The notes beneath the pieces are model-generated. The model saw nothing but the letters and a program-made list of their open reading frames with translations. It ran no database searches and was not told where the DNA came from. From contig NZ_QFFG01000001.1 of NCBI RefSeq assembly GCF_003129485.1, positions 779,391 to 843,390 on the forward strand: 64,000 bases of DNA, read 5' to 3'. Within the stretch, counting starts at the first letter, position 1; each line of letters starts with the position of its first letter. This document shows positions 47,495-63,919 of this stretch, in pieces. This DNA is from Polaribacter aquimarinus (GTDB lineage: Bacteria; Bacteroidota; Bacteroidia; Flavobacteriales; Flavobacteriaceae). The translations under genes and the position numbers were made by a program.

Positions 47495-48610
47495 ATGAAA
47501 TCTATTACCTTACTCCGTAATACCCACAAGGGTATAAATGTTATTACGATTCATTTTCCTTTCAGTGAGGAAGTGAAAAATCATTTAAACATACTACCCG
47601 AAGTATTTTGGAGTAAAACTTTGAAATGCTTTTACATTGAAGATTCCTTATATAATAGAAGTTTATTATATAAACATATTCGACTTAAAAATTGGTTTGT
47701 TAACTATAACAAATTAAAAAAACGATTAACGCCTCACTTAGAAGAAAACTACAAATTAGAGTTACCTATTCTATCTAACAAATTAACCATAGAATTATCT
47801 GAATTTAAAAAATGGTTACAACAAAAAAGGTTAAGTGCTAATACTGTTAACACCTATGTAGAAGTAACAAGTTTCTTTTTGCGTTATGGATTGCTAAAAA
47901 AGATTGAAAATTATTCGATAAAATTAATTGAACAATTTAACTACGATTTTATATTTAGAGCAAATAAGTCTGTGTCTTATCAAAATCAATGTATTAACGG
48001 AATCAAAAAATTTCTTTTATTTAAGGGAGTAGAAGTTGATTTACTTAATATTGAAAGACCAAAAAAAGAAAAACAATTACCTGCAGTTCTAAGTACAGAA
48101 GAAATAAAGACAATTTTTAATAATCTTACAAATCTCAAACACAAAACGTTATTAAGTTTACTTTATTCGGGTGGGCTTAGAATTGGGGAAGCATTGAATT
48201 TAAAAATTAATGATATTGATAGTAAAAGAATGTTAATTCATATTAGACAAGCTAAGGGTAAAAAAGATAGGTATACTTTACTTTCATATTCTTTTTTAAA
48301 ACTTGTTAGAGAATATTATTTAGCCTATAAACCAAAAGTGTTCCTTTTTGAGGGGCAAAATGGAAAAAAATATAGTAATTCTAGTGCTCAAGCTGTTTTA
48401 AAAAAATCATTGAAGAATACAAGAATTTCAAAAAAAGTCACATTACATACACTAAGGCACACTTTCGCAACACATTTATTAGAAAACGGGACAGATATTA
48501 GATATATACAAGAGTTATTGGGACATAACAGTCCAAAAACAACCATGATTTATACACACGTTAGCAAAACTAGTCTGAAAAACATTAAAAATCCTTTTGA
48601 TGAACTATAG
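47495..48610 (+). CDS. tyrosine recombinase heading an integron-like cassette array
   Basis: The 371-aa protein has an extra N-terminal domain (residues 1-90, with FWSKTLKCFYIED), a SAM-like core-binding domain (about 95-180) and a complete catalytic domain: R229 in SGGLRIGEA, K254 in RQAKGKKDR, H318 and R321 in HTLRHTFATHLL, H344 in LLGHNSPKT and the nucleophile Y353 in MIYTHVS. The tail SKTSLKNIKNPFDEL resembles the integron-integrase ending (..RSPLDAL). The roughly 20-residue insertion that marks IntI proteins before the H-x-x-R box is not visible (VFLFEGQNGKKYSNSS is short). The gene points in the same direction as the 14 cassettes that follow. No phage genes are near. I infer that it recombines the repeated sites. 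Confidence 0.88.
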   Translation: MKSITLLRNTHKGINVITIHFPFSEEVKNHLNILPEVFWSKTLKCFYIEDSLYNRSLLYKHIRLKNWFVNYNKLKKRLTPHLEENYKLELPILSNKLTIELSEFKKWLQQKRLSANTVNTYVEVTSFFLRYGLLKKIENYSIKLIEQFNYDFIFRANKSVSYQNQCINGIKKFLLFKGVEVDLLNIERPKKEKQLPAVLSTEEIKTIFNNLTNLKHKTLLSLLYSGGLRIGEALNLKINDIDSKRMLIHIRQAKGKKDRYTLLSYSFLKLVREYYLAYKPKVFLFEGQNGKKYSNSSAQAVLKKSLKNTRISKKVTLHTLRHTFATHLLENGTDIRYIQELLGHNSPKTTMIYTHVSKTSLKNIKNPFDEL

Positions 48611-48632
48611 AATAAATTTATATTTATGGAGA

Positions 48633-48728
48633 CAATACTATGTTATAAATAATATTACAAAACATCAGTTTAGTCTATTAAATTAGACGGCTATACTGAT
48701 ATTTTATAAGCATATAAACAAGTTGCCA
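48633..48728 (+). other. attI-like site between recombinase gene and first cassette
   Basis: The boundary GTTGCCA of cassette 1 is at 48722-48728. Upstream, CAATACTATGTTATAA (from 48633) mirrors TTATAAGCATA (48705-48715), with inner arms ATCAGT/ACTGAT (48664-48669 and 48695-48700) and GTCTA/TAGAC. The site thus folds like the cassette sites. The bases left of CAAT do not pair with cassette 1's first bases, as expected for a resident site next to the integrase. Confidence 0.65.
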
Positions 48729-48749
48729 CACATAAAAAACTGAACGAAA

Positions 48750-49493
48750 ATGTTCTGGAATAAAAGAAAAAAATTACCAATTACAGAAGAAGACAAAGTT
48801 TGGATTGATGAAGATTTAAATTGGTTAAAAGCTGAATTAGGAAAAGAACATTTTATGGAAATTAAAACTGTGAAACCAACTAAAGAGTTTTACAACAGGA
48901 ATTTCGATAAAACAGAAAAAGATGCTGAATTCATTTTAGAACGAACAATGGAATTAATGAGCATCAAAGATTTGGAAATAAAACTTGATTTTTTTTCAGA
49001 TGGAATTGTAGAATCTGAAAATGGAACAATTTTAACAACTCCTGCTGACATAAATGGAAAATGGGAAAGTGCTGCTGGAACTTACGAAAAGAATGAAAAA
49101 GGTATTATAATCTCAATTGAAACTCAACAATTAAAAGATCCTATTTCATTAATTGCAACAATTTCTCACGAATTGTCTCACCAGATATTATTAGGAGAAA
49201 ATCGAATTGAGGAAAATGATGAATTTTTAACTGACTTAACCGCTATAAGTTATGGTTTTGGAATTTTTATAGGAAATTCAAGATTTAATTTTTCACAATT
49301 TTCAACAAATGGAGGATTTGGATGGCAATCAAGTGGAATTGGATATTTGCCTGAACAAATAATAGCTTATTCAATGGCTTGGTTATCGAATGAGCGAAAT
49401 GAAAATACGGAATATTCAAACTTTTTGAAACCATCAATAAAAAAGTATTTTAAAAATAGTTATGAATATTTGAAAAATGAAAAATCTGAATAA
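48750..49493 (+). CDS. cassette 1: HExxH-containing protein, possible zinc peptidase
   Basis: The 247-aa protein has no signal peptide. ISHELSHQILLGENRIEENDEFLTDL (about residues 137-162) contains HELSH, an HExxH zinc motif, followed by acidic residues (E/D) that could give the third ligand. The rest (GTILTTPADINGKWESAAGTYE, NFLKPSIKKYFKNSYEYL) is not recognised. It starts 27 bases into the cassette and ends four bases before the closing repeat. Peptidase activity is inferred only from the motif. Confidence 0.6.
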   Translation: MFWNKRKKLPITEEDKVWIDEDLNWLKAELGKEHFMEIKTVKPTKEFYNRNFDKTEKDAEFILERTMELMSIKDLEIKLDFFSDGIVESENGTILTTPADINGKWESAAGTYEKNEKGIIISIETQQLKDPISLIATISHELSHQILLGENRIEENDEFLTDLTAISYGFGIFIGNSRFNFSQFSTNGGFGWQSSGIGYLPEQIIAYSMAWLSNERNENTEYSNFLKPSIKKYFKNSYEYLKNEKSE

Positions 49494-49497
49494 TTAC

Positions 49498-49633
49498 GTG
49501 TGGCAACACCGTGTAAAATTAATTGCTAGTTTTAGCTCACTTGGGAAATTCCTTCGGAATTTCGCCGTTCGTGTTTAATCTAGTAAATTAGTTGCTTGAA
49601 ACACGCAACTAATCTTACACAACCACGTTGTAC
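49498..49633 (+). repeat. attC-like site 1 (closes cassette 1)
   Basis: The left box GTGTGGCAAC (49498-49507) is the reverse complement of the first ten bases of cassette 1 (GTTGCCACAC). The inner stem pairs GTGTAAAATTAATTGC with GCAACTAATCTTACAC; left spacer ACC, right spacer AACCAC. The central hairpin is GAAATTCC-TTC-GGAATTTC. The right core GTTGTAC is at 49627-49633. Confidence 0.9.
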
Positions 49634-49640
49634 ACTATAA

Positions 49641-50462
49641 ATGAGAAACTTACTACCACTTCTATTTTTAGCTTTTATGATTTTATCTTGTAATAATAAA
49701 CGAGCTGATAAATTGACTAATGTGATTCTAAAGTTTTACGAAAAACAACCTGATAAAATTTATAGAAAAGTTTTAAAGAAATCTGAATTCGATAGTATTT
49801 TTTATTATTACAAAAATGGAAATATATTTAAAGAAGGAAAAAGCAGAAAAAATGGTAAACCTTTTGGAATATGGAATTTATATTCTAAAAATGGAAAATT
49901 GAGGGAAATTAGAGAGTGGTTTGTAATCAACGGACATTCAAGAATCAATAGAGTTTGGTTTTTGAACAAAAGCGGAGATACAATACCATGGAGAAATCAA
50001 GACTCTATTTTTATGCAAAAGGAGTTTATAAATGACACTTTGGGAACAAGAGCTACAAATTACAATGTGATATATTTTAGAAAAGACACTGTTGAGTTCA
50101 ATGAGTCTATGAAAGCTATTGCTTATTTACGCTCACCTTTGATTGAAGAAGAAAATTCTCAATTAATGGTTTTAATTGGTAAATCTAAAAATAATTTTAA
50201 CTCTGATTTTTCAAATGAAAATGAGGTTAAACTAGACACTTTTTACAATTTAACAATAGATACAGTAAATCAAAAATGGTTTCCTAATGTAGAACAAAAA
50301 TACTTTGTGACATTTGGGTATTATTTTGAAAGTCCAGGATTAAAGAACATAAAAGGGTACATGCTCGAATATGCAAATGGGAATTTTGAGAATGGAATAG
50401 ACAGTTTGACTTCTAAAACTTATTTCGAAAAAGAGATATTTGTAAAGGATTCTGTTAAATAA
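49641..50462 (+). CDS. cassette 2: lipoprotein with YwqK/MORN-like repeats
   Basis: The 273-aa protein has a lipoprotein signal (LLFLAFMILSCNN, lipobox cysteine near residue 17). Two to three repeats follow, such as YYYKNGNIFKEGKSRKNG and LYSKNGKLREIREW, like those of the chromosomal protein at 1210. The C-terminal half is not recognised. It starts 13 bases into the cassette and ends five bases before the closing repeat. Confidence 0.65.
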   Translation: MRNLLPLLFLAFMILSCNNKRADKLTNVILKFYEKQPDKIYRKVLKKSEFDSIFYYYKNGNIFKEGKSRKNGKPFGIWNLYSKNGKLREIREWFVINGHSRINRVWFLNKSGDTIPWRNQDSIFMQKEFINDTLGTRATNYNVIYFRKDTVEFNESMKAIAYLRSPLIEEENSQLMVLIGKSKNNFNSDFSNENEVKLDTFYNLTIDTVNQKWFPNVEQKYFVTFGYYFESPGLKNIKGYMLEYANGNFENGIDSLTSKTYFEKEIFVKDSVK

Positions 50463-50467
50463 ATTAC

Positions 50468-50603
50468 AGTGTACAACAAAGTATAAATTTTATTGCTAGC
50501 TTTTAGCCTACTTGCGAAAATTCTAGCGAATTTTCTAATCCGTGATTATTTGCTAACTTTACGCTAAACCAGACGCAACAAACTTTATACAGAGCCGTTG
50601 GCA
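50468..50603 (+). repeat. attC-like site 2 (closes cassette 2)
   Basis: The left box AGTGTACAAC (50468-50477) is the reverse complement of the cassette 2 start GTTGTACACT. The inner stem pairs GTATAAATTTTATTGC with GCAACAAACTTTATAC; spacers AAA and AGAGCC. Right core GTTGGCA at 50597-50603. Confidence 0.9.
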
Positions 50604-50622
50604 ACAAGCCGAAATCACTCAT

Positions 50623-51015
50623 ATGGAAACAAAATCAATCGAACAATTAGAGAAAGATATTTGGAAAAACCCTTCCGAATTTCCGACTGATTTGGTTGAA
50701 AAATGTCATCGCTATCGAAAGATAGGTATTGCGGAATTGACAAACGAACAAATAAGACTTCTGATTTCTCAAAATATCGGAATTGAATATCTAATCGGAA
50801 TCGCACTCGAAAAACTCGAACGGAATATTTTGACCGAATGTGATTTTTACGAAGGCGATTTACTTATCGCTGTTTCAAGTTTACCGACTGAATTTTGGAA
50901 TGAAAATCAAACTGAATTTCTGAAATTCAAAAATATTGTGGAACAGAATTCGGTAATAATAAAAACTGAACTCGGAGAAAAGAAATTTGACCGAATAAAT
51001 GAAAAACTAACTTAA
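50623..51015 (+). CDS. cassette 3a: CdiI-like contact-dependent-inhibition immunity protein
   Basis: The 130-aa protein follows the pattern of a CDI immunity family (CdiI_3-like): SIEQLEKDIWKNPSEFPTDLVEKCH, IAELTNEQIRLLISQNIGIEYLIGIALEKLERN and ECDFYEGDLLIAVSSLPTEFW. Such proteins neutralise toxins delivered by neighbouring cells. No toxin gene is in the cassette, so it would be an orphan immunity gene. The call rests on remembered family patterns, not a search. The next gene starts directly after its stop. Confidence 0.7.
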   Translation: METKSIEQLEKDIWKNPSEFPTDLVEKCHRYRKIGIAELTNEQIRLLISQNIGIEYLIGIALEKLERNILTECDFYEGDLLIAVSSLPTEFWNENQTEFLKFKNIVEQNSVIIKTELGEKKFDRINEKLT

Positions 51016-51315
51016 ATGAATAATATAAATTTTAAAAAATGGGCATTCCATTTTATGATTTGGATTTTAATAATTAATATTATTTCCTTCTATTTAACAA
51101 TCAGCTATACAAGTATATTTAATGAAGGAGACAATACAGCACAAGTCTTATTTTATTTTGGAATTTTAGGAACAGTTTTACTTTTATTGAGTCTTATTTT
51201 TATAATTTTTAGTACCATAAAAAAAGAGAAGAAAAATTATCAATATTGGACTTCAATAGTTGGACTTGTCATTTTTGGAATTTTGCCAATTTTAGCAAGT
51301 CTATTTTTAAATTAA
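51016..51315 (+). CDS. cassette 3b: small membrane protein
   Basis: The 99-aa protein has three predicted membrane helices (about residues 9-30, 42-66 and 78-98). No family is recognised. Its ATG follows the immunity-gene stop with no gap, so the two are translated together. It ends 36 bases before the closing repeat. Confidence 0.6.
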   Translation: MNNINFKKWAFHFMIWILIINIISFYLTISYTSIFNEGDNTAQVLFYFGILGTVLLLLSLIFIIFSTIKKEKKNYQYWTSIVGLVIFGILPILASLFLN

Positions 51316-51350
51316 TTTAGAGAATAATTGAACTGAATAAATAAAAGCCA

Positions 51351-51483
51351 GTTGCCAACAATGGCTATAAGTAATTGCTTATTCTCGCCTACTTCTGAAA
51401 ATCCTCGCGGATTTTCAGTTTGGTGTGTACTTGCAAAATTAACCGCTAACCCACGCAACTACTCATAGCCGAGACCGTTGTGG
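51351..51483 (+). repeat. attC-like site 3 (closes cassette 3)
   Basis: The left box GTTGCCAAC (51351-51359) is the reverse complement of the cassette 3 start GTTGGCAAC. The inner stem pairs GGCTATAAGTAATTGC with GCAACTACTCATAGCC; spacers AAT and GAGACC. The central hairpin is CTGAAAATCC-TCGC-GGATTTTCAG. Right core GTTGTGG at 51477-51483. Nearly identical in body to sites 5 and 12. Confidence 0.9.
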
Positions 51484-51505
51484 TGCATTTAACGAAACCC
51501 TAAAA

Positions 51506-51979
51506 ATGAACAGAAGTCATAGAAATATATTAGCCGAAAATCTTCGCCATTATCTATCTGGAAGAATAACAAACTTTGAGTTTATGGACAGAATTGAACC
51601 AATATACCCAACAAATGACAAAGGAGTTAAAGCGGTTGAAAATAGTTTTTGGTACTGTTATGATGATTTGAGAAAACACAAAAACACAGGAAAAGACAAA
51701 TTGACTGATGAGGCTGAAAATCATATTAAACGATTTATTCTGTTTCTGAAATCTGACAATGAATACGAATGGAAAGACCCAAAATTCTCGAATCCGATTA
51801 AATGGATTTTGAGTTTAATAACGTTCGGAATTTATCCAAAAAAAGCGGAAGAAAGTGAATCTGAAAATATTGAACTTGGAGACGAACGAGTTTGGCCATT
51901 TTTTCGACAAACTGAATTTGAAAAGGAAATTAATGAACCAAAATATCTGAATAAAAAACGACACCACAACACCGTATAA
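51506..51979 (+). CDS. cassette 4: hypothetical protein
   Basis: The 157-aa protein is soluble apart from a weak hydrophobic stretch (NPIKWILSLITFGIYP, about residues 95-110). No family is recognised. It starts 28 bases into the cassette. The frame runs through the left box of the closing repeat, so the last residues (HHNTV) are encoded by the repeat and the stop is the TAA in its GTATAA box. Confidence 0.6.
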   Translation: MNRSHRNILAENLRHYLSGRITNFEFMDRIEPIYPTNDKGVKAVENSFWYCYDDLRKHKNTGKDKLTDEAENHIKRFILFLKSDNEYEWKDPKFSNPIKWILSLITFGIYPKKAEESESENIELGDERVWPFFRQTEFEKEINEPKYLNKKRHHNTV

Positions 51980-52095
51980 AAATAATTGCGGTTTAGTGCT
52001 TAATCAAAGATCGTTGCGTGTTTGTAACGTCTGATTTTCCTTCGGAAAATCCTCGCATACAAACCCGCAACTATTCTTATACATAAACGTTGTGG
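51962..52095 (+). repeat. attC-like site 4 (closes cassette 4)
   Basis: The left box CACCACAAC (51962-51970) is the reverse complement of the cassette 4 start GTTGTGGTG. The inner stem pairs GTATAAAAATAATTGCGG with CCGCAACTATTCTTATAC; spacers ACC and ATAAAC. The central hairpin is GATTTTCC-TTC-GGAAAATC. Right core GTTGTGG at 52089-52095. Confidence 0.9.
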
Positions 52096-52114
52096 GTAAT
52101 TTGAGAAAACCGAA

Positions 52115-52495
52115 ATGAACGAATCAAAAAGACTGAATTTTTTAAAATCTTATCTCAAGCTATATGGAGTTGAGAAAATTAAATTGACAAACGAAACGGT
52201 TGACTCAATAAGCGGAATTGCAATCTATGACGAAAATGACCCAGAAGAACGACAGGAATTTATTTGGCATAAATCTGAAATGGAAATTCCCTCACCTGAA
52301 TTGAATATTCTGATTGAAAAAATTGTGGCGGAAAAATGGCATAACGGAGACAAAATTTCGGAACGTATTGAGGAGTTGGAATTTGAAGAGTTTGACAACT
52401 CGACCAAAGAAAAAATATTGACTGAATTATTTGACGTCCGAATTAGAATGGTTGATAACGGAGAGGAAACGGACTCATATTTTGTGCATTATTGA
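52115..52495 (+). CDS. cassette 5a: hypothetical acidic protein
   Basis: The 126-aa protein is soluble and acidic (many E and D), with no signal peptide; parts read SISGIAIYDENDPEERQEFIWHK and DNSTKEKILTELFDVRIRMVD. No family is recognised. It begins 25 bases into the cassette after the leader AATTTGAGAAAAC shared with other cassettes. Its stop is eight bases before the next gene's ATG. Confidence 0.6.
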   Translation: MNESKRLNFLKSYLKLYGVEKIKLTNETVDSISGIAIYDENDPEERQEFIWHKSEMEIPSPELNILIEKIVAEKWHNGDKISERIEELEFEEFDNSTKEKILTELFDVRIRMVDNGEETDSYFVHY

Positions 52496-52503
52496 CTTTA
52501 AAA

Positions 52504-52926
52504 ATGAAACTAATTAAAAAAATATTGCTTATTGGAATTGTTACCCTATTAGTTGGCTGTTTCTCAACCGAAACTAAAGATGCCAAAAAAGCATATAGAT
52601 ATTGGTCTGGAAACGAACCGCCAAAAGAAATTGAACTAATTAAAGGAGAATATTATCAATCACCTCACTTTACTCTTGAATACGAACTATTCCTAAAATT
52701 CAAATCTGACAAAAAATGGTTTGAAGAATTTGTTGAGTATAATGGACTTGAAATTGATACAATCGGAAATGATTGGAAATCTTGGACTGAATTGCCAAAG
52801 TGGTTTAATCCTGACCAAAATTATTTGATTTATGCAAAAGACCAATCGAATGAATTTGAGCGTTCGAGATATTTGAAGAATCCCGAAACTGGAATTAGTT
52901 ATATTTACGAAACAGTTGGAATGTGA
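52504..52926 (+). CDS. cassette 5b: small lipoprotein
   Basis: The ATG at 52504 gives MKLIKKILLIGIVTLLVGC, a lipoprotein signal with lipobox LVGC; the mature part is about 121 residues. Parts read KSDKKWFEEFVEYNG and WTELPKWFNPDQNYLIYAKD. The protein in cassette 10 (59365) has a comparable ending around a PRWF motif, so the two may be distant relatives. Function is unknown. Confidence 0.65.
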   Translation: MKLIKKILLIGIVTLLVGCFSTETKDAKKAYRYWSGNEPPKEIELIKGEYYQSPHFTLEYELFLKFKSDKKWFEEFVEYNGLEIDTIGNDWKSWTELPKWFNPDQNYLIYAKDQSNEFERSRYLKNPETGISYIYETVGM

Positions 52927-52938
52927 AAAATAAAAAAC

Positions 52939-53072
52939 TACCCACAACAATGGCTATAAGTAATTGCTTGTTCTCGCCTACTTCTGAAAATCCTCGCGGA
53001 TTTTCAGTTTGGTGTATACTTGCTAAGTTAACCGCTGAACCACGCAACTACTCATAGCCGAGACCGTTGGCA
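52939..53072 (+). repeat. attC-like site 5 (closes cassette 5)
   Basis: The left box TACCCACAAC (52939-52948) is the reverse complement of the cassette 5 start GTTGTGGGTA. The inner stem is GGCTATAAGTAATTGC with GCAACTACTCATAGCC; spacers AAT and GAGACC. Right core GTTGGCA at 53066-53072. Its body differs from site 3 by only a few bases. Confidence 0.9.
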
Positions 53073-53085
53073 ATAATTAGTCGCT

Positions 53086-53841
53086 ATGAAAAAAACAACT
53101 TTTATTTTTCTGACTTTTTTGATTTTTTATTCTTGTCAAAAAGAGGAATCAAAATCTGACTTCATTGGAAACTGGAGTGCAACTTCTGACACTAATTTTG
53201 ATATAAATATTACTTTTTCAAATGACTCGATATTAATTGAAAATCCTGTAGTTTATTATGACAGAAATTATTCAACTAGATGGAAAGTTATTGGAAAAAA
53301 AATTGAACTTGAAGAAGCTGTCTGGAATTATAAATTTAATCTTAAAAAAGATTCTTTACTAATAAAACATCAAACTGATTCAGTTTACGATTTAAGTCTT
53401 AAAAGAATAAAAAATAATTATGAATTTCTTGAAAATAAACTGGGTTTTGAATTAAGACTACCTAAAACAAATGAAGAGCTTATAAAAGTTGAGAATAAGG
53501 AACTTTTTTATAATATTTATATAGGAAAAGAAAATAAATCTATAATTATTAGAACTGATAATAATTTGAAAAGTATTAATCAAATAATAAATAAAAGATC
53601 TTTTTTGAAAATTTCAAAAACGGAAAGTAATAATAAAAAGCTGGAAAAAGGATTTAAAATTGATACTTTGACAATTGCTCTTTTGTCTGATAAATCAATT
53701 AACAATAATGAATTAGATTCTATAAAATCAATTTTGAAAGATTATCAAATTAAAAGGTTTTTCAGAATTTACAACAACGAGGAATACACTAAAAAAGATT
53801 GGAAGGCTGAAATAAATTGGTTGGGAAAATATGAAAATTAA
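53086..53841 (+). CDS. cassette 6: lipoprotein, unknown function
   Basis: The 251-aa protein has a lipoprotein signal (FLTFLIFYSCQKE, cysteine near residue 17) and then SDFIGNWSATSDTNFDINITFSNDSI, a lipocalin-like beta-barrel start often seen in flavobacterial lipoproteins. The C-terminal part (about 100-251) is not recognised. It starts 19 bases into the cassette and ends one base before the closing repeat. Confidence 0.65.
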   Translation: MKKTTFIFLTFLIFYSCQKEESKSDFIGNWSATSDTNFDINITFSNDSILIENPVVYYDRNYSTRWKVIGKKIELEEAVWNYKFNLKKDSLLIKHQTDSVYDLSLKRIKNNYEFLENKLGFELRLPKTNEELIKVENKELFYNIYIGKENKSIIIRTDNNLKSINQIINKRSFLKISKTESNNKKLEKGFKIDTLTIALLSDKSINNNELDSIKSILKDYQIKRFFRIYNNEEYTKKDWKAEINWLGKYEN

Positions 53842-53842
53842 C

Positions 53843-53978
53843 TATTGCCAACACTGTATAAACTTTATTGCTGCTAAAATTTTCCTTCGGAAAAATACGC
53901 AGGCACAAAGTTGTTTAATAAATTGCTTACTTTTAGCATAACTAAAACGCAACAAAGCTTATACGAGAAACGTTAGGC
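53843..53978 (+). repeat. attC-like site 6 (closes cassette 6)
   Basis: The left box TATTGCCAAC (53843-53852) is the reverse complement of the cassette 6 start GTTGGCAATA. The inner stem pairs GTATAAACTTTATTGC with GCAACAAAGCTTATAC; spacers ACT and GAGAAAC (7 nt, one longer than usual). Right core GTTAGGC at 53972-53978, which is a canonical GTTRRRY. Confidence 0.9.
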
Positions 53979-53994
53979 AACATTTGAGGAAACA

Positions 53995-54492
53995 ATGAAA
54001 TTAGGAAATAACATTTTAGCATTTATCGTATTTTTAATTATCGGAATTCCGATTTTTATATTGTTTTTGCCAATAATGATAGTTCTTTACCCAATTCATT
54101 TCTTTCAAAGAAAGCGATTTGAAAAAAAATACTCTGAATTTCTGACTAGCAACAACGGAAAGAATTTCTTCTGCTACAACAATAGAAAAAACTCGAAAGA
54201 ATATATTGAGGAACAAATAATCCCAAATCTGACTGACGGAATTGAAATCGTGTATCTGAATGGAAAAAAAGTAGAATCGGAATATAACGTGGAATTTATT
54301 TCAGAGGCTCTTTACAAGTTTAAGAATTACAGCGGATTTCCTCACTTAATGAAAATACAGAATGGAAAACTGATTGACAAATCAATAAACAATCCGTTTT
54401 ATAACGTGCTGAATTTAAAAAAGAGTAAAACTGAATTATTAACCAAAATCAATCGGTTCTTTGAACTGAATGAAATAAAAAACGTTGCCTAA
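53995..54492 (+). CDS. cassette 7: membrane-anchored hypothetical protein
   Basis: The 165-aa protein has an N-terminal membrane region (about residues 8-34) and a basic stretch (HFFQRKRFEKKY), then a soluble alpha/beta domain (EIVYLNGKKVESEYNVEFISEALYKF). No family is recognised. It starts 22 bases into the cassette after a CATTTGAGGAAAC leader. Its stop codon TAA lies inside the closing repeat's left box (GTTGCCTAAC). Confidence 0.6.
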   Translation: MKLGNNILAFIVFLIIGIPIFILFLPIMIVLYPIHFFQRKRFEKKYSEFLTSNNGKNFFCYNNRKNSKEYIEEQIIPNLTDGIEIVYLNGKKVESEYNVEFISEALYKFKNYSGFPHLMKIQNGKLIDKSINNPFYNVLNLKKSKTELLTKINRFFELNEIKNVA

Positions 54493-54621
54493 CACCGTAT
54501 AAAAATAATTGCTTATTTTAGGCTAAACCAAAAGTCGTTGCGCTTTTGGTACGTTTGATTTTCCTAATCGGAAAATCCTCGCACTCAAAACCGCAACTAT
54601 CCTTATACAAACACGTTACCT
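54484..54621 (+). repeat. attC-like site 7 (closes cassette 7)
   Basis: The left box GTTGCCTAAC (54484-54493) is the reverse complement of the cassette 7 start GTTAGGCAAC. The inner stem pairs GTATAAAAATAATTGC with GCAACTATCCTTATAC; spacers ACC and AAACAC. Right core GTTACCT at 54615-54621 opens the restriction-modification cassette. Confidence 0.9.
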
Positions 54622-54652
54622 GCAAGCGAATCCAACCGCACAGTCAAGCACA

Positions 54653-54785: not shown

Positions 54786-54793
54786 GAATAATT

Positions 54794-58179: not shown

Positions 58180-58184
58180 CGGAA

Positions 58185-58271
58185 TTGCCAACGCTAAAAG
58201 CCATACACATTTCCAGTCGCACCATCCACGCTACACCAAAACTGTAAAAGAGTATGTCTTTGCCAACGCTA
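58185..58271 (+). repeat. direct repeat TTGCCAACGCTA in the tail of cassette 8
   Basis: TTGCCAACGCTA occurs at 58185-58196 and again at 58260-58271, 75 bases apart. TTGCCAAC also resembles the left box of the cassette sites, so this stretch may be the remains of an older cassette junction. No gene lies between the endonuclease stop and the closing site. Confidence 0.5.
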
Positions 58272-58295
58272 GCAAGTTTGCGGAAAAACGCCAGC

Positions 58296-58429
58296 CAGGT
58301 AACAACGTATATAAAAAATAGCGGTTCAAGTGCTTAATCCAAAGTGATTTTCATAAATTTAAAGCCAGCACTAAACCGAAAAGTTAGTGTTTAAAAATCC
58401 GCTACTTTTCATATACAACACCGTTGTAA
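58296..58429 (+). repeat. attC-like site 8 (closes cassette 8)
   Basis: The left box CAGGTAAC (58296-58303) is the reverse complement of the cassette 8 start GTTACCTG, located 3.7 kb away. The inner stem pairs GTATATAAAAAATAGCGG with CCGCTACTTTTCATATAC; spacers AAC and AACACC. Right core GTTGTAA at 58423-58429. Confidence 0.88.
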
Positions 58430-58464
58430 CACATTACCAAGCGATCTCAAAAAAGGAATTAATA

Positions 58465-58803
58465 ATGGGAGAAATAATAGGAGAAATTCTTTTTAAATAT
58501 GTAATTGCTGGAATTTGGATTGGACTAAATTCAATTTATGATTGGATTAAAGGAGTTATTTTTGGAATACCAAAAATTGAAGTTGAAAAGAAAAGACTTG
58601 AAAAAAAATGGCTCTATAAAAAAGTGATTTTAAGAGAAAAACTTGAAAACGGAATTGAAATTGGAACAAATGGAACTGTTATGGAAATAATAGACAAAAG
58701 AACTGCTTTTACAGAATTCTACAACCAAAATGGAGAATTTATTGAAATTGAAAATGAATTGATGTACAAAGTGAAATTAAGTAAATTAAAGCTAAAAAAA
58801 TAG
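58465..58803 (+). CDS. cassette 9a: hypothetical protein with N-terminal hydrophobic helix
   Basis: The ATG at 58465 gives a 112-aa protein (MGEIIGEILFKYVIAGIWIG...). A longer frame would begin inside the preceding repeat, so I reject it. The N-terminus is hydrophobic/amphipathic (residues 1-35). The rest is a small beta-rich domain (KVILREKLENGIEIGTNGTV, NELMYKVKLSKLKL). No family is recognised. Confidence 0.55.
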   Translation: MGEIIGEILFKYVIAGIWIGLNSIYDWIKGVIFGIPKIEVEKKRLEKKWLYKKVILREKLENGIEIGTNGTVMEIIDKRTAFTEFYNQNGEFIEIENELMYKVKLSKLKLKK

Positions 58804-58813
58804 TTTATTGAAA

Positions 58814-59185
58814 ATGGAATATTTCTTTATTTTTATTGTAGTTCTATTAATTATTTATGCTACTTACAATCAAATAAAAGTTATTTATTATCGGAATTTT
58901 AAATCTTTTGAAATAGAAATAGAGAACTTTTTGGAATCTCATAATTATCAATTAATAGAAAAAAGGAACCCAAATAAAGAAGACTGGAAAAAGAGTCCAT
59001 TTGAAAAACCACCGAATTTTAAAGTTACTCTTTCTGTTATTAAAATTAATGGTTTACCAGTAACTTGGACAGATTTAAAATATAAAGTCATTATTGGAAA
59101 AAAGGAAAATCGCACAAAACAAATTTGGTTGGAAATTAAAACGACATATTTTCAAAAGCCAAAACTGAATTTTATAATTAAATAG
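58814..59185 (+). CDS. cassette 9b: membrane-anchored hypothetical protein
   Basis: The ATG at 58814 gives a 123-aa protein with one N-terminal membrane helix (YFFIFIVVLLIIYATY) and a basic soluble domain (IEKRNPNKEDWKKSPFEKPP, TWTDLKYKVIIGKKENRTKQIWLEIKT). No family is recognised. It starts 10 bases after the previous stop and ends 19 bases before the closing repeat. Confidence 0.6.
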   Translation: MEYFFIFIVVLLIIYATYNQIKVIYYRNFKSFEIEIENFLESHNYQLIEKRNPNKEDWKKSPFEKPPNFKVTLSVIKINGLPVTWTDLKYKVIIGKKENRTKQIWLEIKTTYFQKPKLNFIIK

Positions 59186-59204
59186 AAATGAAAAATTTAA
59201 AAAC

Positions 59205-59340
59205 GTGTTACAACACCGTATAAACTTTATTGCTAGTTATAGCTCACTTGGGAAATTCCTTCGGAATTTCGCCGTTCGTGTTTTATTTAGTAAATTCATT
59301 GCTTAAATCACGCAACAAAGCTTATACAAACACGTTGGCA
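59205..59340 (+). repeat. attC-like site 9 (closes cassette 9)
   Basis: The left box GTGTTACAAC (59205-59214) is the reverse complement of the cassette 9 start GTTGTAACAC. The inner stem pairs GTATAAACTTTATTGC with GCAACAAAGCTTATAC; spacers ACC and AAACAC. The central hairpin is GAAATTCC-TTC-GGAATTTC as in site 1. Right core GTTGGCA at 59334-59340. Confidence 0.9.
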
Positions 59341-59364
59341 ATAATATAACCGAACCCAAAAACA

Positions 59365-59823
59365 TTGAGAAAATATCTGAAATTTTTGACTTTGATTGTA
59401 CTCTTAATGAGTTATAGTTGTGCATACGAATCGCAAAACAGAGAAAAACTTGAATCGTCTTTTGAGGACAACTTTGGATTTAAACCTCCTGAATCTATAA
59501 AGGAAATTAAACTTAAAAACCGAGGGTATTTTGATTTTCAAGTTCATTATATGTCGTTCACATACGACTCAAATATTTTAGAAAAAATTATTGCTCACGA
59601 CCAACCTCTGAATACTGTCGAAAGTAATAATGTGAAATTTGGAAATATTATTGACGAATTAAAAGAAGACGCTGGACTTCCGAGATGGTTTGATTTACCG
59701 AATAAAAATGTTGACCGAATTTATTACAAGAATGATTTTTTGGACCATACATTTAGCGAATATTATTTATGGATTGACAAACAAACTGAAATGACTTATT
59801 TGTATGTTCACTTTTTTGACTAA
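59365..59823 (+). CDS. cassette 10a: small lipoprotein
   Basis: The 152-aa protein starts with TTG at 59365 (no ATG fits) and has the lipoprotein signal FLTLIVLLMSYSCAY (lipobox SYSC). The mature part includes SSFEDNFGFKPPESIKEIKL and LPRWFDLPNKNVDRIYYKND. A similar ending occurs in the cassette 5 lipoprotein (LPKWFNP). Function is unknown. The start is 30 bases into the cassette. Confidence 0.62.
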   Translation: MRKYLKFLTLIVLLMSYSCAYESQNREKLESSFEDNFGFKPPESIKEIKLKNRGYFDFQVHYMSFTYDSNILEKIIAHDQPLNTVESNNVKFGNIIDELKEDAGLPRWFDLPNKNVDRIYYKNDFLDHTFSEYYLWIDKQTEMTYLYVHFFD

Positions 59824-59878
59824 TAAGATAATATTATTACCAAAATAATGACAAAACTATAATTGGAAAAAAGATATA

Positions 59879-60163
59879 ATGAAAGAGTTAGATAAGTCTG
59901 TAGATAAAACCTTGAGATTATATAAATACTCAAGTATTATTTTCATTATAATATATTGGGTTTATATAATTATTGATGATTATAATTTCATAGTTAATTA
60001 CTGGAATACTAACTGGATAGATTATATAAAAATTTGGTCTATTTACTTTCTTATATATTTTGTTTTGTTTACGATTATATTTTGTTCTATTTCTCTAATA
60101 ATTCTCTTTTGTTATTATAAAATTCACAAACGATTTAAACAGAAAAATAAATTAACGGAATAA
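59879..60163 (+). CDS. cassette 10b: small membrane protein
   Basis: The 94-aa protein has two long hydrophobic helices (about residues 17-36 and 52-80) and basic ends. No family is recognised. It lies 55 bases after the lipoprotein and ends six bases before the closing repeat. Confidence 0.55.
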   Translation: MKELDKSVDKTLRLYKYSSIIFIIIYWVYIIIDDYNFIVNYWNTNWIDYIKIWSIYFLIYFVLFTIIFCSISLIILFCYYKIHKRFKQKNKLTE

Positions 60164-60169
60164 AAATAC

Positions 60170-60304
60170 TATTGCCAACACCGTATAAAATTAATTGCTG
60201 GTTTTAGTCTATTTACGAAAGTCCTCGCGGACTTTCTATCTGTGATTTATTTGCTAACTTTAGTGCTTAAAACACACAACTAATCTTATACATCAACGTT
60301 GTAA
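60170..60304 (+). repeat. attC-like site 10 (closes cassette 10)
   Basis: The left box TATTGCCAAC (60170-60179) is the reverse complement of the cassette 10 start GTTGGCAATA. The inner stem pairs GTATAAAATTAATTG with CAACTAATCTTATAC; spacers ACC and ATCAAC. The central hairpin is GAAAGTCC-TCGC-GGACTTTC. Right core GTTGTAA at 60298-60304. Confidence 0.9.
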
Positions 60305-60328
60305 CACATTTGAGCAAACTAAGAAAAA

Positions 60329-60661
60329 TTGAAATTAACTAAAAAACATTTGGGAATTTACAATACATACGAAGGAAAAAAATCTTCGTTAGAAAATGTT
60401 GGAACTCAAAAAGAGAAGGAATTATTTCAAAATGGAGAATTTGAGAAAATAACGAAATTAATAGAAACTGAATACAAAATAAAACGGAAAGAGCTTTCGG
60501 AATCAGAAATACAAAATCACAAATCTGAACTGAATTTAATATTTGATAGTAATTGGAATAAAAAATCGTTGAAATACTTATCGAAAAAATATTATGAACC
60601 TGAAAAAGAACAAAGCACTTTTGACTCAATAATGTCTATGCTTTGGGCGATGTTTGGATAA
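60329..60661 (+). CDS. cassette 11a: hypothetical protein
   Basis: The 110-aa, lysine/glutamate-rich soluble protein starts with TTG at 60329 (MKLTKKHLGIYNTYEGKKSS) and ends in STFDSIMSMLWAMFG. No family is recognised. The start is 30 bases into the cassette after an ACATTTGAGCAAAC leader. The next gene starts nine bases after its stop. Confidence 0.5.
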   Translation: MKLTKKHLGIYNTYEGKKSSLENVGTQKEKELFQNGEFEKITKLIETEYKIKRKELSESEIQNHKSELNLIFDSNWNKKSLKYLSKKYYEPEKEQSTFDSIMSMLWAMFG

Positions 60662-60670
60662 AAATAAAAT

Positions 60671-60892
60671 ATGACTGAATTCGTAATTATATCTGTTTTG
60701 ATAATCCTTTTTGGAGGATTTTTATATTGGGCTTATCTTCCAGATTATAGGAGAAATCCGAAAGAATTTTGGCGGACATTAATCGGAATGCCAATTGGAA
60801 TGTTACTCGGCGGAATTGGATTCAGAGATTTAAACGAACAAATTAGAAAATGGGCTGTCGGAGATAAAAATGAAAAGAAAACTGAAAAATAA
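60671..60892 (+). CDS. cassette 11b: small membrane protein
   Basis: The 73-aa protein has one clear membrane helix (residues 3-24), then YRRNPKEFWRTLIGMPIGMLLGGIGF with a second, weaker hydrophobic stretch and a lysine-rich tail. No family is recognised. It ends four bases before the closing repeat. Confidence 0.55.
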   Translation: MTEFVIISVLIILFGGFLYWAYLPDYRRNPKEFWRTLIGMPIGMLLGGIGFRDLNEQIRKWAVGDKNEKKTEK

Positions 60893-60896
60893 AAAC

Positions 60897-61032
60897 GTGT
60901 TACAACAATGTATAACCGCAATTACGGCGAATTCGACTACGTCCGAATCCACTCGGAATTGCTAAAGTCTGTGCCAAACCGAAAATTAACGCATATTAAC
61001 CCGTAACTGACGGTTATACGAGACCGTTGTGC
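60897..61032 (+). repeat. attC-like site 11 (closes cassette 11)
   Basis: The left box GTGTTACAAC (60897-60906) is the reverse complement of the cassette 11 start GTTGTAACAC. The inner arms are GTATAACCGCAATTACGG and CCGTAACTGACGGTTATAC; spacers AAT and GAGACC. Right core GTTGTGC at 61026-61032. The centre differs from the other sites. Confidence 0.88.
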
Positions 61033-61054
61033 AACATATAAAAAAACTGAAGTC

Positions 61055-61714
61055 GTGAGATTTAAAATTGGAATAATATTCATATTTCTGTGCCAAATTG
61101 CTCAAGCACAGCAATCGGAAATGACCGTAAATCAAAATCGCTACAACTCTGAATTTAATGCAAATTCTGAACTTAAAAGCGAGTTTGAAAATAGCGAAAA
61201 ATCTAATGACGAATTTAGACTTATAGCTAAATCAAACGATAATGGAAAAATTTGGGTGTATATACAAAATACCACTTCCGATACAATTTCACTTTCTCAT
61301 CAGGATTATAGCATTTACATTCTACAAGAGGCAATGGATAAAAATGGATTATGGAAACCAATTGAGTATTGGGAAAGCTCTGATTGCGGAAACAGTTTCG
61401 GAGAAATTAAAATTGAGCCGAATGAAATAATTCAGACAGAATCGGCAAAATATAGTGGGGATTTTAAAACCAAAATTAGATTTAAGTTGAGTGAAAATAA
61501 TAAAGTGTATTATTCCAATGCAATAGAGGGAAATATCAATCCGAATAAAATGATTTTACCAAATGATTTCAGTTTTACTTGGCCATTAGCTATTATGGAA
61601 AACAGCGGAAAAAAAACGCCAATGGAATTACAAAAAAAAGTGGTTTTTTTAGAACCAAATGGAATGGAAGAATTTAATGAGTTTTTTGAAAATTCAATGA
61701 AAAAAAAGAATTAA
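61055..61714 (+). CDS. cassette 12: exported hypothetical protein
   Basis: The 219-aa protein starts with GTG at 61055 and has a signal peptide (FKIGIIFIFLCQIAQAQ, cleavage near residue 19). The rest is predicted beta-rich and soluble (ISLSHQDYSIYILQEAMDKNG, IRFKLSENNKVYYSNAIEGN). No family is recognised. It ends six bases before the closing repeat. Confidence 0.6.
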   Translation: MRFKIGIIFIFLCQIAQAQQSEMTVNQNRYNSEFNANSELKSEFENSEKSNDEFRLIAKSNDNGKIWVYIQNTTSDTISLSHQDYSIYILQEAMDKNGLWKPIEYWESSDCGNSFGEIKIEPNEIIQTESAKYSGDFKTKIRFKLSENNKVYYSNAIEGNINPNKMILPNDFSFTWPLAIMENSGKKTPMELQKKVVFLEPNGMEEFNEFFENSMKKKN

Positions 61715-61720
61715 AAATAC

Positions 61721-61853
61721 GTTGCACAACAATGGCTATAAGTAATTGCTTGTTCTCGCCTACTTCTGAAAATCCTCGCGGATTTTCAGTTTGGTGTGTA
61801 CTTGCAAAGTTAAGTGCTAAACCACGCAACTACTCATAGCCCAACCGTTGTGC
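61721..61853 (+). repeat. attC-like site 12 (closes cassette 12)
   Basis: The left box GTTGCACAAC (61721-61730) is the reverse complement of the cassette 12 start GTTGTGCAAC. The inner stem is GGCTATAAGTAATTGC with GCAACTACTCATAGCC; spacers AAT and CAACC (5 nt). Right core GTTGTGC at 61847-61853. Body nearly identical to sites 3 and 5. Confidence 0.9.
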
Positions 61854-61876
61854 TTAATGTAAAAACATTCAGGAAA

Positions 61877-62446
61877 TTGACAGAATTACAAAAATATATT
61901 ACTTCCTACTTTGGAATCTCAAACCAGAATATGGACAAAATAACGTCTTTATTCACTGAATCTGAACTCAAAAAAGGAGATTATTTTACAAAATCTGGAC
62001 AATATTGCGAAAAACTGAGTTTTGTAAGAAGTGGATTTATTAGAATTTTTGCAAACGCTAATGACAAGGAAGTTACGCAATGGATTTCTACAAAAGGCTA
62101 CTTCATAACAGATTTATACAGTTTTACTTTCAAACAAAGAGCGAAGTGGAATATTCAAGCATTAACGGACTGCGAACTCTACACAATCGATAAAGAAAAT
62201 TATGTGCTTTTGAATAATTTAGTTCCAAATTGGGCTGAAATTGAAAAACAATTTATTGCAGGTTGTTTCATTCAATTAGAAGATAGAGTTTTCAACCATT
62301 TATCCCTTAGTGCTGAAGAACGTTACGACAAACTTTTTGAGAATAGCAAAGAGCTTTTTAATCAAGTTCCCTTGCAATATCTCGCTTCAATGCTAGGAAT
62401 GTCGCCTGAAACATTTAGTCGTATAAGAAACAAAAAGATTTCTTGA
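61877..62446 (+). CDS. cassette 13a: Crp/Fnr-family transcriptional regulator
   Basis: The protein has a cyclic-nucleotide-type beta-roll (YFTKSGQYCEKLSFVRSGFIRIF) and a C-terminal helix-turn-helix (YLASMLGMSPETFSRIRNKKIS) with the E-x-x-S-R contact pattern, as in the chromosomal regulator at 11264. A longer frame begins at 61814 inside the previous cassette's repeat, which cannot belong to a mobile cassette. The TTG at 61877 (189 aa, 29 bases into the cassette) is preferred; a GTG at 61850 is possible. Its stop lies in an operator palindrome facing the SRPBCC gene. Confidence 0.82.
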   Translation: MTELQKYITSYFGISNQNMDKITSLFTESELKKGDYFTKSGQYCEKLSFVRSGFIRIFANANDKEVTQWISTKGYFITDLYSFTFKQRAKWNIQALTDCELYTIDKENYVLLNNLVPNWAEIEKQFIAGCFIQLEDRVFNHLSLSAEERYDKLFENSKELFNQVPLQYLASMLGMSPETFSRIRNKKIS

Positions 62447-62486
62447 TTTTTGTCAAGAGCAGAAACCACATTTGAATCGAACTTTG
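62441..62486 (+). promoter_or_regulatory. Crp/Fnr-type operator and promoter inside cassette 13
   Basis: TCTTGA-N6-TCAAGA (62441-62458, centre 62449.5) has the same arms and spacing as the centre of the palindrome at 11826. It includes the regulator's stop codon. GAACTTTG (62479-62486), close to TAnnTTTG, begins 29.5 bases from the centre, the same distance as at the chromosomal site. Confidence 0.65.
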
Positions 62487-62504
62487 TCTAATAAATTAGA
62501 TATT

Positions 62505-62927
62505 ATGGCAAAGCAGATTAAAACATCAATTACGATAAACGCAAGTAAAGAGAAAATTTGGAAAATACTTACCGACTTTAAAAATTACCCCGAATGGAAT
62601 TCATTTATTAAGTCGGTTACTGGAGAAGTAAAGGTTGGAAAACAGATTAAAATAAAATTACAAGGAATGACTTTTAAACCTATTATATTAATCTTTAATG
62701 AAAACTCAGAATTAAAATGGCTTGGTCGTCTTTGGTTCAAAGGAATTTTTGACGGAGAACATAAATTCAAACTAACCGATAATGGAAACGGAACAACCAA
62801 TTTTGAGCAGAGCGAGATTTTTAGTGGAATTTTGGTTAAGCTATTTGCAAAGAGTTTGGATAAGGACACAAAAAATGGATTTGAACAGATGAACAAGGAA
62901 TTGAAATTACACGCAGAAAAACACTAA
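62505..62927 (+). CDS. cassette 13b: SRPBCC (START-like) domain protein
   Basis: The ATG at 62505 gives a 140-aa protein, MAKQIKTSITINASKEKIWK, with ILTDFKNYPEWNSFIKSVTG and a C-terminal helix (GFEQMNKELKLHAEKH). This is the SRPBCC/polyketide-cyclase-like fold that holds hydrophobic ligands. A specific ligand cannot be inferred. It is probably controlled by the regulator upstream through the operator at 62441. Its stop TAA forms the first bases of the closing repeat's left box. Confidence 0.85.
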   Translation: MAKQIKTSITINASKEKIWKILTDFKNYPEWNSFIKSVTGEVKVGKQIKIKLQGMTFKPIILIFNENSELKWLGRLWFKGIFDGEHKFKLTDNGNGTTNFEQSEIFSGILVKLFAKSLDKDTKNGFEQMNKELKLHAEKH

Positions 62928-63119
62928 GCACAACAAAGTCTATAATTAATACGGGTTTTGGTGCTTAATCAAAAGAAAAGTGTATTTTTATAGAGTCCGC
63001 CAAATCTTTTGATTTGGCTTTAAAAATTAAAAAGTAAAATAAAAAGTTTTGGCTAAGTGCAAATTCGGAAGTTAATCGCTTATTTATTCCCGTACTAATC
63101 ATAGCCGAAGCCGTTGTAC
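62925..63119 (+). repeat. attC-like site 13 (closes cassette 13), long form
   Basis: The left box TAAGCACAAC (62925-62934) is the reverse complement of the cassette 13 start GTTGTGCTTA. The inner stem pairs GTCTATAATTAATACGGG with CCCGTACTAATCATAGCC; spacers AAA and GAAGCC. The centre is longer than in other sites (195 bp in all) and holds GCCAAATC-TTTT-GATTTGGC (62999-63018). Right core GTTGTAC at 63113-63119. Confidence 0.88.
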
Positions 63120-63131
63120 TGCATTTGAGAA

Positions 63132-63488
63132 ATGAGAAAACCAATTAACATTTTGGACAAAAATCAACAAATGGAATTACCAGTTGGAATCTACAGTCTG
63201 AAAGTTTTGGGTGGTTGGAAAGTAATTACGAATAACTTTTCTGTAATTCTTCGAGAAGTAAATGGAGAAACTGTAATAAAGCCAAAAGAAACGTTTTGGA
63301 AAATCCAGTCTTTTGCTTTTGGTAAACGAGCAAAAAAGATAGCTTCAGTTGACATTCCGAAAAGAGCAACATATGAAATTGAATTTTTAAATCCATCCGA
63401 CTTGAAAGTCAAAAAATCGAACCTTATAACGTTGGGTTTTTTCCAAAGTTTTCTACCAACCAATGAAATTCAAGTTTGTATCGAATGA
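63132..63488 (+). CDS. cassette 14a: hypothetical protein
   Basis: The 118-aa soluble protein begins MRKPINILDKNQQMELPVGIYSLKVLGGWK and is probably beta-rich (NFSVILREVNGETVIKPKETFWK). No signal peptide or family is recognised. It starts 18 bases into the cassette after a GCATTTGAGAA leader. The stop overlaps the next ATG (ATGA). Confidence 0.55.
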   Translation: MRKPINILDKNQQMELPVGIYSLKVLGGWKVITNNFSVILREVNGETVIKPKETFWKIQSFAFGKRAKKIASVDIPKRATYEIEFLNPSDLKVKKSNLITLGFFQSFLPTNEIQVCIE

Positions 63489-63865
63489 AAAAGACTTACG
63501 ATATAAAATTAAGCGGAGTAAAAATCGGAACAACTGATTTTGAGTTTGCGGACACACCAATGGGTGTTGTCTTTGGTATAGTCAATTTTGAGAATATTAA
63601 CTCACCTTACGAATTGATAAAAGAACATTGCATTAAAAACGGAGTTGGAATAAATGATGATTACCCAGAAGACAAGTTCATTAATACAATGTTAATTCCC
63701 GAATTAAAAGTATTCGATAACGAGCAAAATGAATTGAAAGGTTGGGGAGCATATTTTATTGGAATGGACAATGACGGATTTGAAATCCAATTTGGCGGAA
63801 TAACATCTGACTTAATGAAATCTGAATTTAAACATCATTATGACGAATATTATAAAACTGAATAA
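63485..63865 (+). CDS. cassette 14b: hypothetical protein
   Basis: The ATG at 63485 overlaps the previous stop and gives a 126-aa protein (MKKTYDIKLSGVKIGTTDFE...). It is soluble, with FADTPMGVVFGIVNFENINSPYELIKEHC and GWGAYFIGMDNDGFEIQFGGI. No family is named with confidence. Coupled translation with 14a suggests joint function. It ends four bases before the final repeat box. Confidence 0.6.
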   Translation: MKKTYDIKLSGVKIGTTDFEFADTPMGVVFGIVNFENINSPYELIKEHCIKNGVGINDDYPEDKFINTMLIPELKVFDNEQNELKGWGAYFIGMDNDGFEIQFGGITSDLMKSEFKHHYDEYYKTE

Positions 63866-63869
63866 AAAC

Positions 63870-63919
63870 GCAGTACAACAAAGAACTGAGTTAAAAAACA
63901 AATAAATTCTTCGTTAAAT
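63870..63919 (+). repeat. truncated terminal attC-like site 14
   Basis: The left box GCAGTACAAC (63870-63879) is the reverse complement of the cassette 14 start GTTGTACTGC. Only a short inner pairing remains (AACAAAGAA with TTCTTCGTT), and GTTAAAT (63913-63919) may be the right core. The site is about 50 bases long, against about 135 elsewhere, and marks the array's end. Confidence 0.7.

Follow-up and report, generated by a model that had tools for sequence, protein, structure and literature searches.

In classical chromosomal integrons, the array of gene cassettes lies upstream of the gene for the integrase IntI and on the opposite strand, and the recombination sites have 7-base arms of the type RYYYAAC/GTTRRRY. 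Here, a cassette array of the flavobacterium Polaribacter aquimarinus is described, which is located in a stretch of 64 kb (the window; G000:C1:779391-843390 of an assembly of 3.37 Mb in 20 contigs) and is headed by the gene of a XerA-like tyrosine recombinase. The array shares with IntI integrons a recombinase gene, an adjacent insertion point, mostly co-directional cassettes, a closing palindromic site, complementarity of the R'' and R' boxes of one and the same cassette, the position of the crossover (G|TT), and the existence of arrays with and without a recombinase gene, i.e. similar to clusters of attC sites lacking integrases (CALIN). It differs from them in that its recombinase lacks the IntI-specific insert, in that its arms comprise 10 bases plus a near-invariant A, and in that recombinase and cassettes have the same direction in the main clade.

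Integrase genes have been reported for the Bacteroidetes/Chlorobi group (PMC2426708), and the Bacteroidota are listed among the phyla with integrons (PMC8618304, PMC9668308); these and the following statements refer to the accessible passages of the papers cited. A survey with IntegronFinder from 2022 named, apart from the integrons of Chlorobi and Ignavibacteriae, Salinibacter ruber as the sole complete integron of the Bacteroidetes (PMC9024848), and the passages of a Salinibacter genome study do not mention integrons (PMC6060240). In our sample of the phylum as drawn by GTDB, possibly a broader group than the one older surveys had in mind, IntI above the family cut-off was found in 85 of 296 genomes. 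The IntI-specific domain is regarded as a defining characteristic (PMC9668308), and the insert has been called essential for integron function (PMC8138268). The latter study describes an integron-like subgroup in which the insert is not fully conserved, and this subgroup may include relatives of the clade treated here. The bottom strand of attC is recognised via extrahelical bases and helix alpha-I2 in IntI (PMC3053210). A Polaribacter phage has been reported to contain attC sites, one of which was recombined by IntI1 (PMC9892861). In another member of the Flavobacteriales, Riemerella anatipestifer, homology-independent integration of aph(3')-IVb has been described, in which, similar to the cassettes here, a gene and an attC-like downstream region of 140 bases integrate as a unit (PMC13148043). 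It is possibly a related phenomenon; in contrast to the present locus, the passages name neither a recombinase nor an array, and the likeness is one of descriptions.

The sequence-only reading of the window had proposed a tyrosine recombinase followed by 14 cassettes of the same direction, which are separated by related imperfect palindromes, and this layout was borne out. Fourteen boundaries were located, at the G of (C)GTT in positions 48722, 49627, 50597, 51477, 52089, 53066, 53972, 54615, 58423, 59334, 60298, 61026, 61847, and 63113, together with 13 sites. The median cassette length is 905 bases. According to the list of open reading frames (ORFs) and the sequence, the distance between boundary and gene start is 13-41 bases in 12 cassettes and 178 bases in cassette 8, as had been stated; in cassette 13, however, an ORF is open across the boundary, and its start is ambiguous. 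The features are as follows, all on the + strand except for the last, which is given without a strand. "Own arms" is the fraction of variable arm positions that are complementary between the start and the end of a cassette, and R1 denotes a covariance model built from sites 1-13.

47495 to 48610, +: tyrosine recombinase, 371 amino acids, XerA-like, without IntI-specific insert (Phage_integrase, 134.3 bits)
48611 to 48722, +: attI-like region; its core ATAAGCATATAAACAAG reaches up to the insertion point G48722|TT
48723 to 49627, +: cassette 1, 247-amino-acid protein without Pfam match; own arms 7/7
49498 to 49636, +: attC-like site 1 (R1, 119.4 bits)
49628 to 50597, +: cassette 2, 273-amino-acid protein; own arms 7/7
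50468 to 50606, +: attC-like site 2 (R1, 116.4 bits)
50598 to 51477, +: cassette 3, CdiI_3-family immunity protein (PF18616, 92.3 bits) and 99-amino-acid ORF; own arms 6/7
51350 to 51486, +: attC-like site 3 (R1, 128.4 bits)
51478 to 52089, +: cassette 4, 157-amino-acid protein; own arms 6/7
51961 to 52098, +: attC-like site 4 (R1, 116.2 bits)
52090 to 53066, +: cassette 5, ORFs of 126 and 144 amino acids; own arms 7/7
52939 to 53075, +: attC-like site 5 (R1, 130.2 bits)
53067 to 53972, +: cassette 6, 251-amino-acid protein; own arms 7/7
53843 to 53981, +: attC-like site 6 (R1, 92.8 bits)
53973 to 54615, +: cassette 7, 165-amino-acid protein; own arms 7/7
54484 to 54624, +: attC-like site 7 (R1, 97.8 bits)
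54616 to 58423, +: cassette 8, restriction-modification pair (PF00145, PF17293, PF15515); own arms 5/7
58294 to 58432, +: attC-like site 8 (R1, 104.8 bits)
58424 to 59334, +: cassette 9, two ORFs without Pfam match; own arms 7/7
59205 to 59343, +: attC-like site 9 (R1, 122.5 bits)
59335 to 60298, +: cassette 10, two ORFs without Pfam match; own arms 7/7
60170 to 60307, +: attC-like site 10 (R1, 125.9 bits)
60299 to 61026, +: cassette 11, two ORFs without Pfam match; own arms 7/7
60897 to 61035, +: attC-like site 11 (R1, 96.3 bits)
61027 to 61847, +: cassette 12, 219-amino-acid protein without Pfam match; own arms 7/7
61721 to 61856, +: attC-like site 12 (R1, 126.9 bits)
61848 to 63113, +: cassette 13, cyclic-nucleotide-binding (Crp/Fnr-type, PF00027) protein and Polyketide_cyc2 (SRPBCC-type, PF10604) protein; own arms 7/7
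62925 to 63122, +: attC-like site 13, with a longer terminal part (R1, 84.9 bits)
63114 to 63880, +: cassette 14, two ORFs; own arms 7/7; closing site broken by an insertion sequence (IS) after R''-A
63881 to 64000: one end of an IS110-family element in site 14 (contig end), recurring at contig ends

Because the first bases of an integron cassette derive from its own circular site, they should be complementary to the closing box of that cassette rather than to that of the neighbor. Exactly this pattern was found. A cassette is a unit of the form TT...CG, the first 10 and last 10 bases of which are complementary, and own start and own end match at 94 of 98 variable arm positions in the window. 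With permuted cassette starts, matches averaged 39.3 and never exceeded 73, and none of 100,000 permutations reached 94; cassette ends and the start of the next cassette are complementary at 32 of 91 positions. In 15 other members of the genus, 182 of 189 cassettes match their own arm at six or more of seven positions, compared to 4% after one shuffle (three further cassettes could not be parsed and are outside the 189). The pattern extends to 13 more distant loci chosen by us, including a Cytophagales plasmid, with matching own arms in 98 of 128 cassettes. The arm has 10 bases, GTTRNNNNNN, with GTTR in 208 of 211 cassette starts, and is followed by A in 210 of them. This complementarity argues that the cassettes are units which form circles and are reinserted at G|TT.

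The closing sites have a conserved structure of their own. R1, the construction of which had been suggested together with the first reading, matched exactly the 13 places in the window from which it was built, and none elsewhere. From core to core the sites span 130-192 bases, and they are imperfect palindromes with the inner arms GTATAA/TTATAC and TTGC/GCAA, in which compensatory changes maintain the pairing, their consensus carrying asymmetric spacers and bulges. For the 13 aligned sites, RNAalifold predicted 18 pairs, 11 of which are changed on both sides. In an alignment of 150 sites from other genomes, which was fitted to the model, 94.8% of the cells are paired, 316 cells have double changes (90.8 after shuffling), and double changes occur in 12 of the 14 inner pairs; sliding this alignment by 1-3 columns decreased pairing to 22-44% (at most 43.9%). 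When six of the 13 sites were folded as bottom-strand DNA, z values of -1.68 to -4.36 resulted. An Rfam scan of the window matched no family, and a comparison of site 3 with 50,697 phage records gave no match.

Judged by conservation, an attI-type insertion point lies beside the recombinase gene. The region can be aligned to relatives as far as 48725-48739. In loci with recombinases of 82-59% identity the core reads ATAAGC.TATAAAC.AG|TT or similar, with recombinases of about 40% identity it reads ATATAAC..G|TT, and in both cases the sequences diverge thereafter. A similar core precedes different first cassettes in the genomes G034, G096, and G001; G034 contains two copies of recombinase and attI, one with a broken recombinase, and their first cassettes differ as well. 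BLASTN homology to both G034 copies, G096, and the broken G001 copy ends 3 to 17 bases past the crossover. The G001 recombinase (L196, G001:C1:1905240-1906352) is of the closest type, with 77% identity and four stops, and still stands before an attI-like core.

Comparison between genomes revealed homology of single cassettes. Copies of cassette 1 with 93-95% identity are present in four other species (G038, G058, G064, and G029), and the homology extends no more than 15 bases ahead of its start and 3 bases past its end; in these stretches no other cassette of the window was matched over at least 300 bases. Cassettes 4 and 6 have copies with 91% and 97% identity, respectively, on contig C19 of the same genome, and cassette 8 has a 79% homolog in an array of G017 (over 54592-58425). 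In the three closest relatives by recombinase (82%, 77%, and 77% identity) the first cassette is a different one, and no window cassette was matched over at least 300 bases in the stretches compared. Identical cassettes in identical order in all relatives, the outcome that the sequence-only reading had set against itself, were thus not encountered at the species level.

Taken together, the locus is very probably an integron-like array, in which a XerA-like recombinase without the IntI-specific domain would excise cassettes and insert them at G|TT. The proposal of an integron-like system with its own recombinase is therefore upheld by own-arm complementarity, the attI-like insertion point, homology of whole cassettes, and the one-sided position of the sites (see below). 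The site of an excised circle would fold as a single-stranded hairpin, similar to attC, and the recombinase would cut at G|TT and join the site of the circle to attI, so that new cassettes would enter beside the recombinase gene and arrays would grow at attI. Transcription of the cassette genes presumably starts at promoters upstream of them. The orientation varies, with recombinase and cassettes in the same direction in the main clade; in some shorter relatives the array is located upstream and on the opposite strand.

The window ends with the interrupted closing site of cassette 14, in which the junction to the IS110-family element reads AACA|AAGAACTGAG. Because site 14 is cut by the IS end, the array continues beyond the window; the number of 14 cassettes holds for the window, but cassette 14 is not a natural end, as its site is interrupted after 63880. 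The stretch 63882-64000 recurs at the ends of contigs C2 and C19 (100%) and at both ends of C17 (100% and 99%), and the other end of the IS, followed by the second half of a site, is found at the beginning of C2, C14, and C15 and at the end of C12. Intact IS110-type elements were also found in G040 (two copies), G077, and G038, with AACA on one side and the inner arm of such a site on the other; in G047 the left junction alone was seen. The window holds one IS end; the transposase of one G040 copy matches PF02371 (77.6 bits) and PF01548 (68.3 bits), which identifies it as a DEDD transposase with a Transposase_20 domain. This repeated insertion at one point of the sites (also at loci L280, L281, L283, and L284) breaks the assembly at arrays. 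IS1111 members that target one end of attC sites have been described (PMC11187229, accessible passages). They share with the elements here an IS110-type transposase and a position at one end of a cassette site, a likeness that rests on transposase and insertion point; in contrast, the host sites here are in Bacteroidota.

The splitting of arrays by IS110 elements and the broken recombinases in G001 and in the second copy of G034 would fit an array that is a relic, i.e., formerly mobile cassettes that now spread exclusively via homologous recombination or IS activity. This is unlikely, because the recombinase of the window is intact and its residues R229, K254, H318, R321, H344, and Y353, which we take to be the catalytic-type residues of a tyrosine recombinase, are invariant in 43 sequences, because the arms in the window are still complementary, and because the highly similar copies of cassette 1 occur in four species without its window neighbors.

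An ordinary chromosomal integron with a merely divergent IntI is very unlikely, and membership in the IntI integrons was rejected on four grounds. First, the recombinase reaches 189.1 bits with the IntI model TIGR02249, below the cut-off of 265, and model positions 176-238 are unmatched, about 42 residues of the IntI-specific insert being absent. Second, the box spacing is 91 in the recombinase of the window and 91-92 in the scorable array recombinases, compared to 133 in IntI1; of 11 IntI loci from Bacteroidota, nine have a spacing of 132-133, and two could not be scored. Third, in a quick tree the IntI sequences form one clade (Shimodaira-Hasegawa-like approximate likelihood ratio test, 100), with the array recombinases outside; this tree gives no firm deeper order, with long branches flagged, and the array clade may be sister to IntI. 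Fourth, the GTTRRRY core was found in 12 of 211 cassette starts. In addition, none of the 11 true-IntI loci of Bacteroidota has R1 sites. Closest in sequence and structure are archaeal Xer/XerA proteins (5hxy, 4a8e) and NF040815 (210.8 bits, cut-off 220). The recombinase aligns with these without the large gap that is seen against IntI; it differs from XerA, XerC, and XerD in its linkage to cassette arrays and in an extra N-terminal part of about 70-95 residues, and the genome carries separate Xer-like genes. The AlphaFold model calculated from 43 sequences has a predicted local distance difference test (pLDDT) score of 85.6 and replaced an earlier, unusable single-sequence fold (pLDDT 34); residues 1-93 are barely probed by the structure comparison, which thus has no bearing on their novelty.

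The distribution of sites and recombinases bears on whether the two belong together. At E<=0.1, R1 found 50 sites in the whole genome, 37 of them outside the array of the window: 26 belong to contigs C2 and C19 and to the terminal parts of C12, C14, and C15, and 11 are solitary. In two of nine scored solitary sites an IS end takes the place of the arm, and two of the nine have an own-start arm upstream, as single-cassette insertions at secondary targets would. GTTAGC follows the last site at 8 of 15 array ends, compared to 19 of 211 internal sites, and GTTAGC after last or solitary sites (e.g., L122, L126, and L128-L131) is perhaps a preferred chromosomal target. In the genus, 93 of 97 members have at least one site (E<=1e-5, under stricter filters and with at most 33 sites counted per genome). 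The median is 29 sites in genomes with an array-type recombinase (E<=1e-40) and 5.5 in those without, and at least five sites are present in 63 of 67 and 16 of 30 genomes, respectively. Sites spread over the genome without any recombinase, the second outcome held against the first reading, were as such not observed, but sites away from a recombinase do exist, such as the 11 solitary ones; in the genus, sites are strongly enriched where the recombinase is present. Unlike a Xer core gene, the array-type recombinase is not present in every genome of the group, as it is absent from 30 of all 97 genus members and from 17 of the 70 with a completeness of at least 90%.

Among the best 80 of 541 related-recombinase loci, taken from named genomes, 149 nearby sites were found. 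Of these, 134 are downstream on the strand of the recombinase; the 15 upstream ones are all on the opposite strand, and none is on that of the recombinase. Downstream sites occur in 38 of the 80 loci; 23 contigs end less than 900 bases from the gene, one of these with a site. The 15 upstream sites fall in eight loci, six of them beside shorter recombinases (about 275 amino acids). Short relatives of this size with related sites in an upstream array on the opposite strand, an arrangement as in classical integrons, were seen at L065, L068, L072, L073, L074, L082, and L235. Frequently, arrays and single sites have no recombinase close by, which would be expected if the recombinase were a resident enzyme of the Xer type without relation to the array, and the cassettes were moved in trans, for example by an IntI elsewhere or by XerC/D. 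However, this is very unlikely in view of the exclusively downstream position on the recombinase strand, the attI-like core behind the gene in each close relative inspected, the lack of any match above the IntI cut-off in this genome, the separate Xer-like genes, and the observation that all 97 genus members match the recombinase query, while the 30 without an array-type recombinase are poorer in sites. Chance palindromes or repetitive extragenic palindromic (REP)-like repeats were rejected in view of own-arm matching, strand polarity, and cassette-wise homology.

Several points weigh against an array that is mobilised by its own recombinase. Anatomy, linkage, covariation, and cassette-wise homology between species are read directly from the sequences, and movement of the cassettes is predicted from the same source. 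The hairpin is predicted, one of the six folded bottom strands is non-significant (z -1.68), and the fitting of the 150-site alignment to R1 favours the structure of the model. Own-arm matching is weaker in the distant loci (25 of 37 in Persicobacter and 2 of 7 in G276), and the comparisons were run between species. Numerous sites, solitary or in arrays, have no recombinase in their vicinity, the own-start arms of the solitary sites are close to chance (19% each), and 14 of the 80 loci with at least 900 bases downstream have no site on either side at E<=0.0031.

Recognisable cassette genes are few, namely those for the CdiI_3 protein, the restriction-modification pair, the cyclic-nucleotide-binding regulator-like protein, and the Polyketide_cyc2 protein; the remaining cassette proteins have no Pfam match at E<=0.001. 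PADLOC, applied to nine cassette proteins, matched solely the restriction-modification pair, which consists of a C5-cytosine methyltransferase and an MvaI/BcnI endonuclease. The methyltransferase (54794-57001) opens with an Arm-DNA-bind_5 domain, which is typical of tyrosine recombinases. A Crp/Fnr-type gene (46535-47224) is located upstream of the recombinase gene.

In the phylum sample, R1 sites were found in 85 of the 296 genomes and in none of the other 211, and they occur beside related recombinases across the Bacteroidota, also on plasmids. Plasmid pPP2 of Persicobacter psychrovividus (Cytophagales; L234, L287) carries dozens of sites on one strand over about 60 kb, and no recombinase of the array type is annotated in the stretches viewed. 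A mobilisable Flagellimonas plasmid (L235, NZ_CP092416.1, 3219-6134) carries a XerA-type recombinase, erm(F), and two sites, adjoining a Tn3-family transposase; its dihydrofolate-reductase-family cassette has own arms of 6/7. On two plasmids with tet(X3), one of them from Acinetobacter, the recombinase gene just upstream of tet(X3) encodes a shortened relative of about 52% identity (L289, FJ012881.1, and L290, NZ_CP041297.1, about 5028-7049). A cassette-start-like GTT...AT precedes tet(X3), as would fit a captured first cassette, but no R1 site was found at the end of the gene, nor a convincing closing arm or a complete cassette site; a weak R1 match (E 0.0094) sits inside the recombinase gene on the other strand.

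It is likely, in our view, that the Bacteroidota harbor a second integron lineage, independent of IntI, in which a XerA-derived recombinase without the IntI insert drives large arrays. The sites of these arrays are near-universal in Polaribacter and present in other orders and on plasmids, among them the one that carries erm(F) together with a dihydrofolate-reductase-family cassette. It would have been overlooked because integron surveys search for IntI and classical attC sites. Judged by its sequences, this would be a separate lineage that is integron-like in its working. In the passages of the open-access literature searched, no integron-type array with a non-IntI recombinase was found for the Flavobacteriia; preprints and most subscription journals were outside this search, so that a prior description is possible. 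If true, a working system without the insert would mean that the attC-style reaction either does not need the insert or has evolved twice. A large and so far unread pool of mobile genes would become accessible in the Bacteroidota, and the system might represent a route for resistance genes in this phylum.

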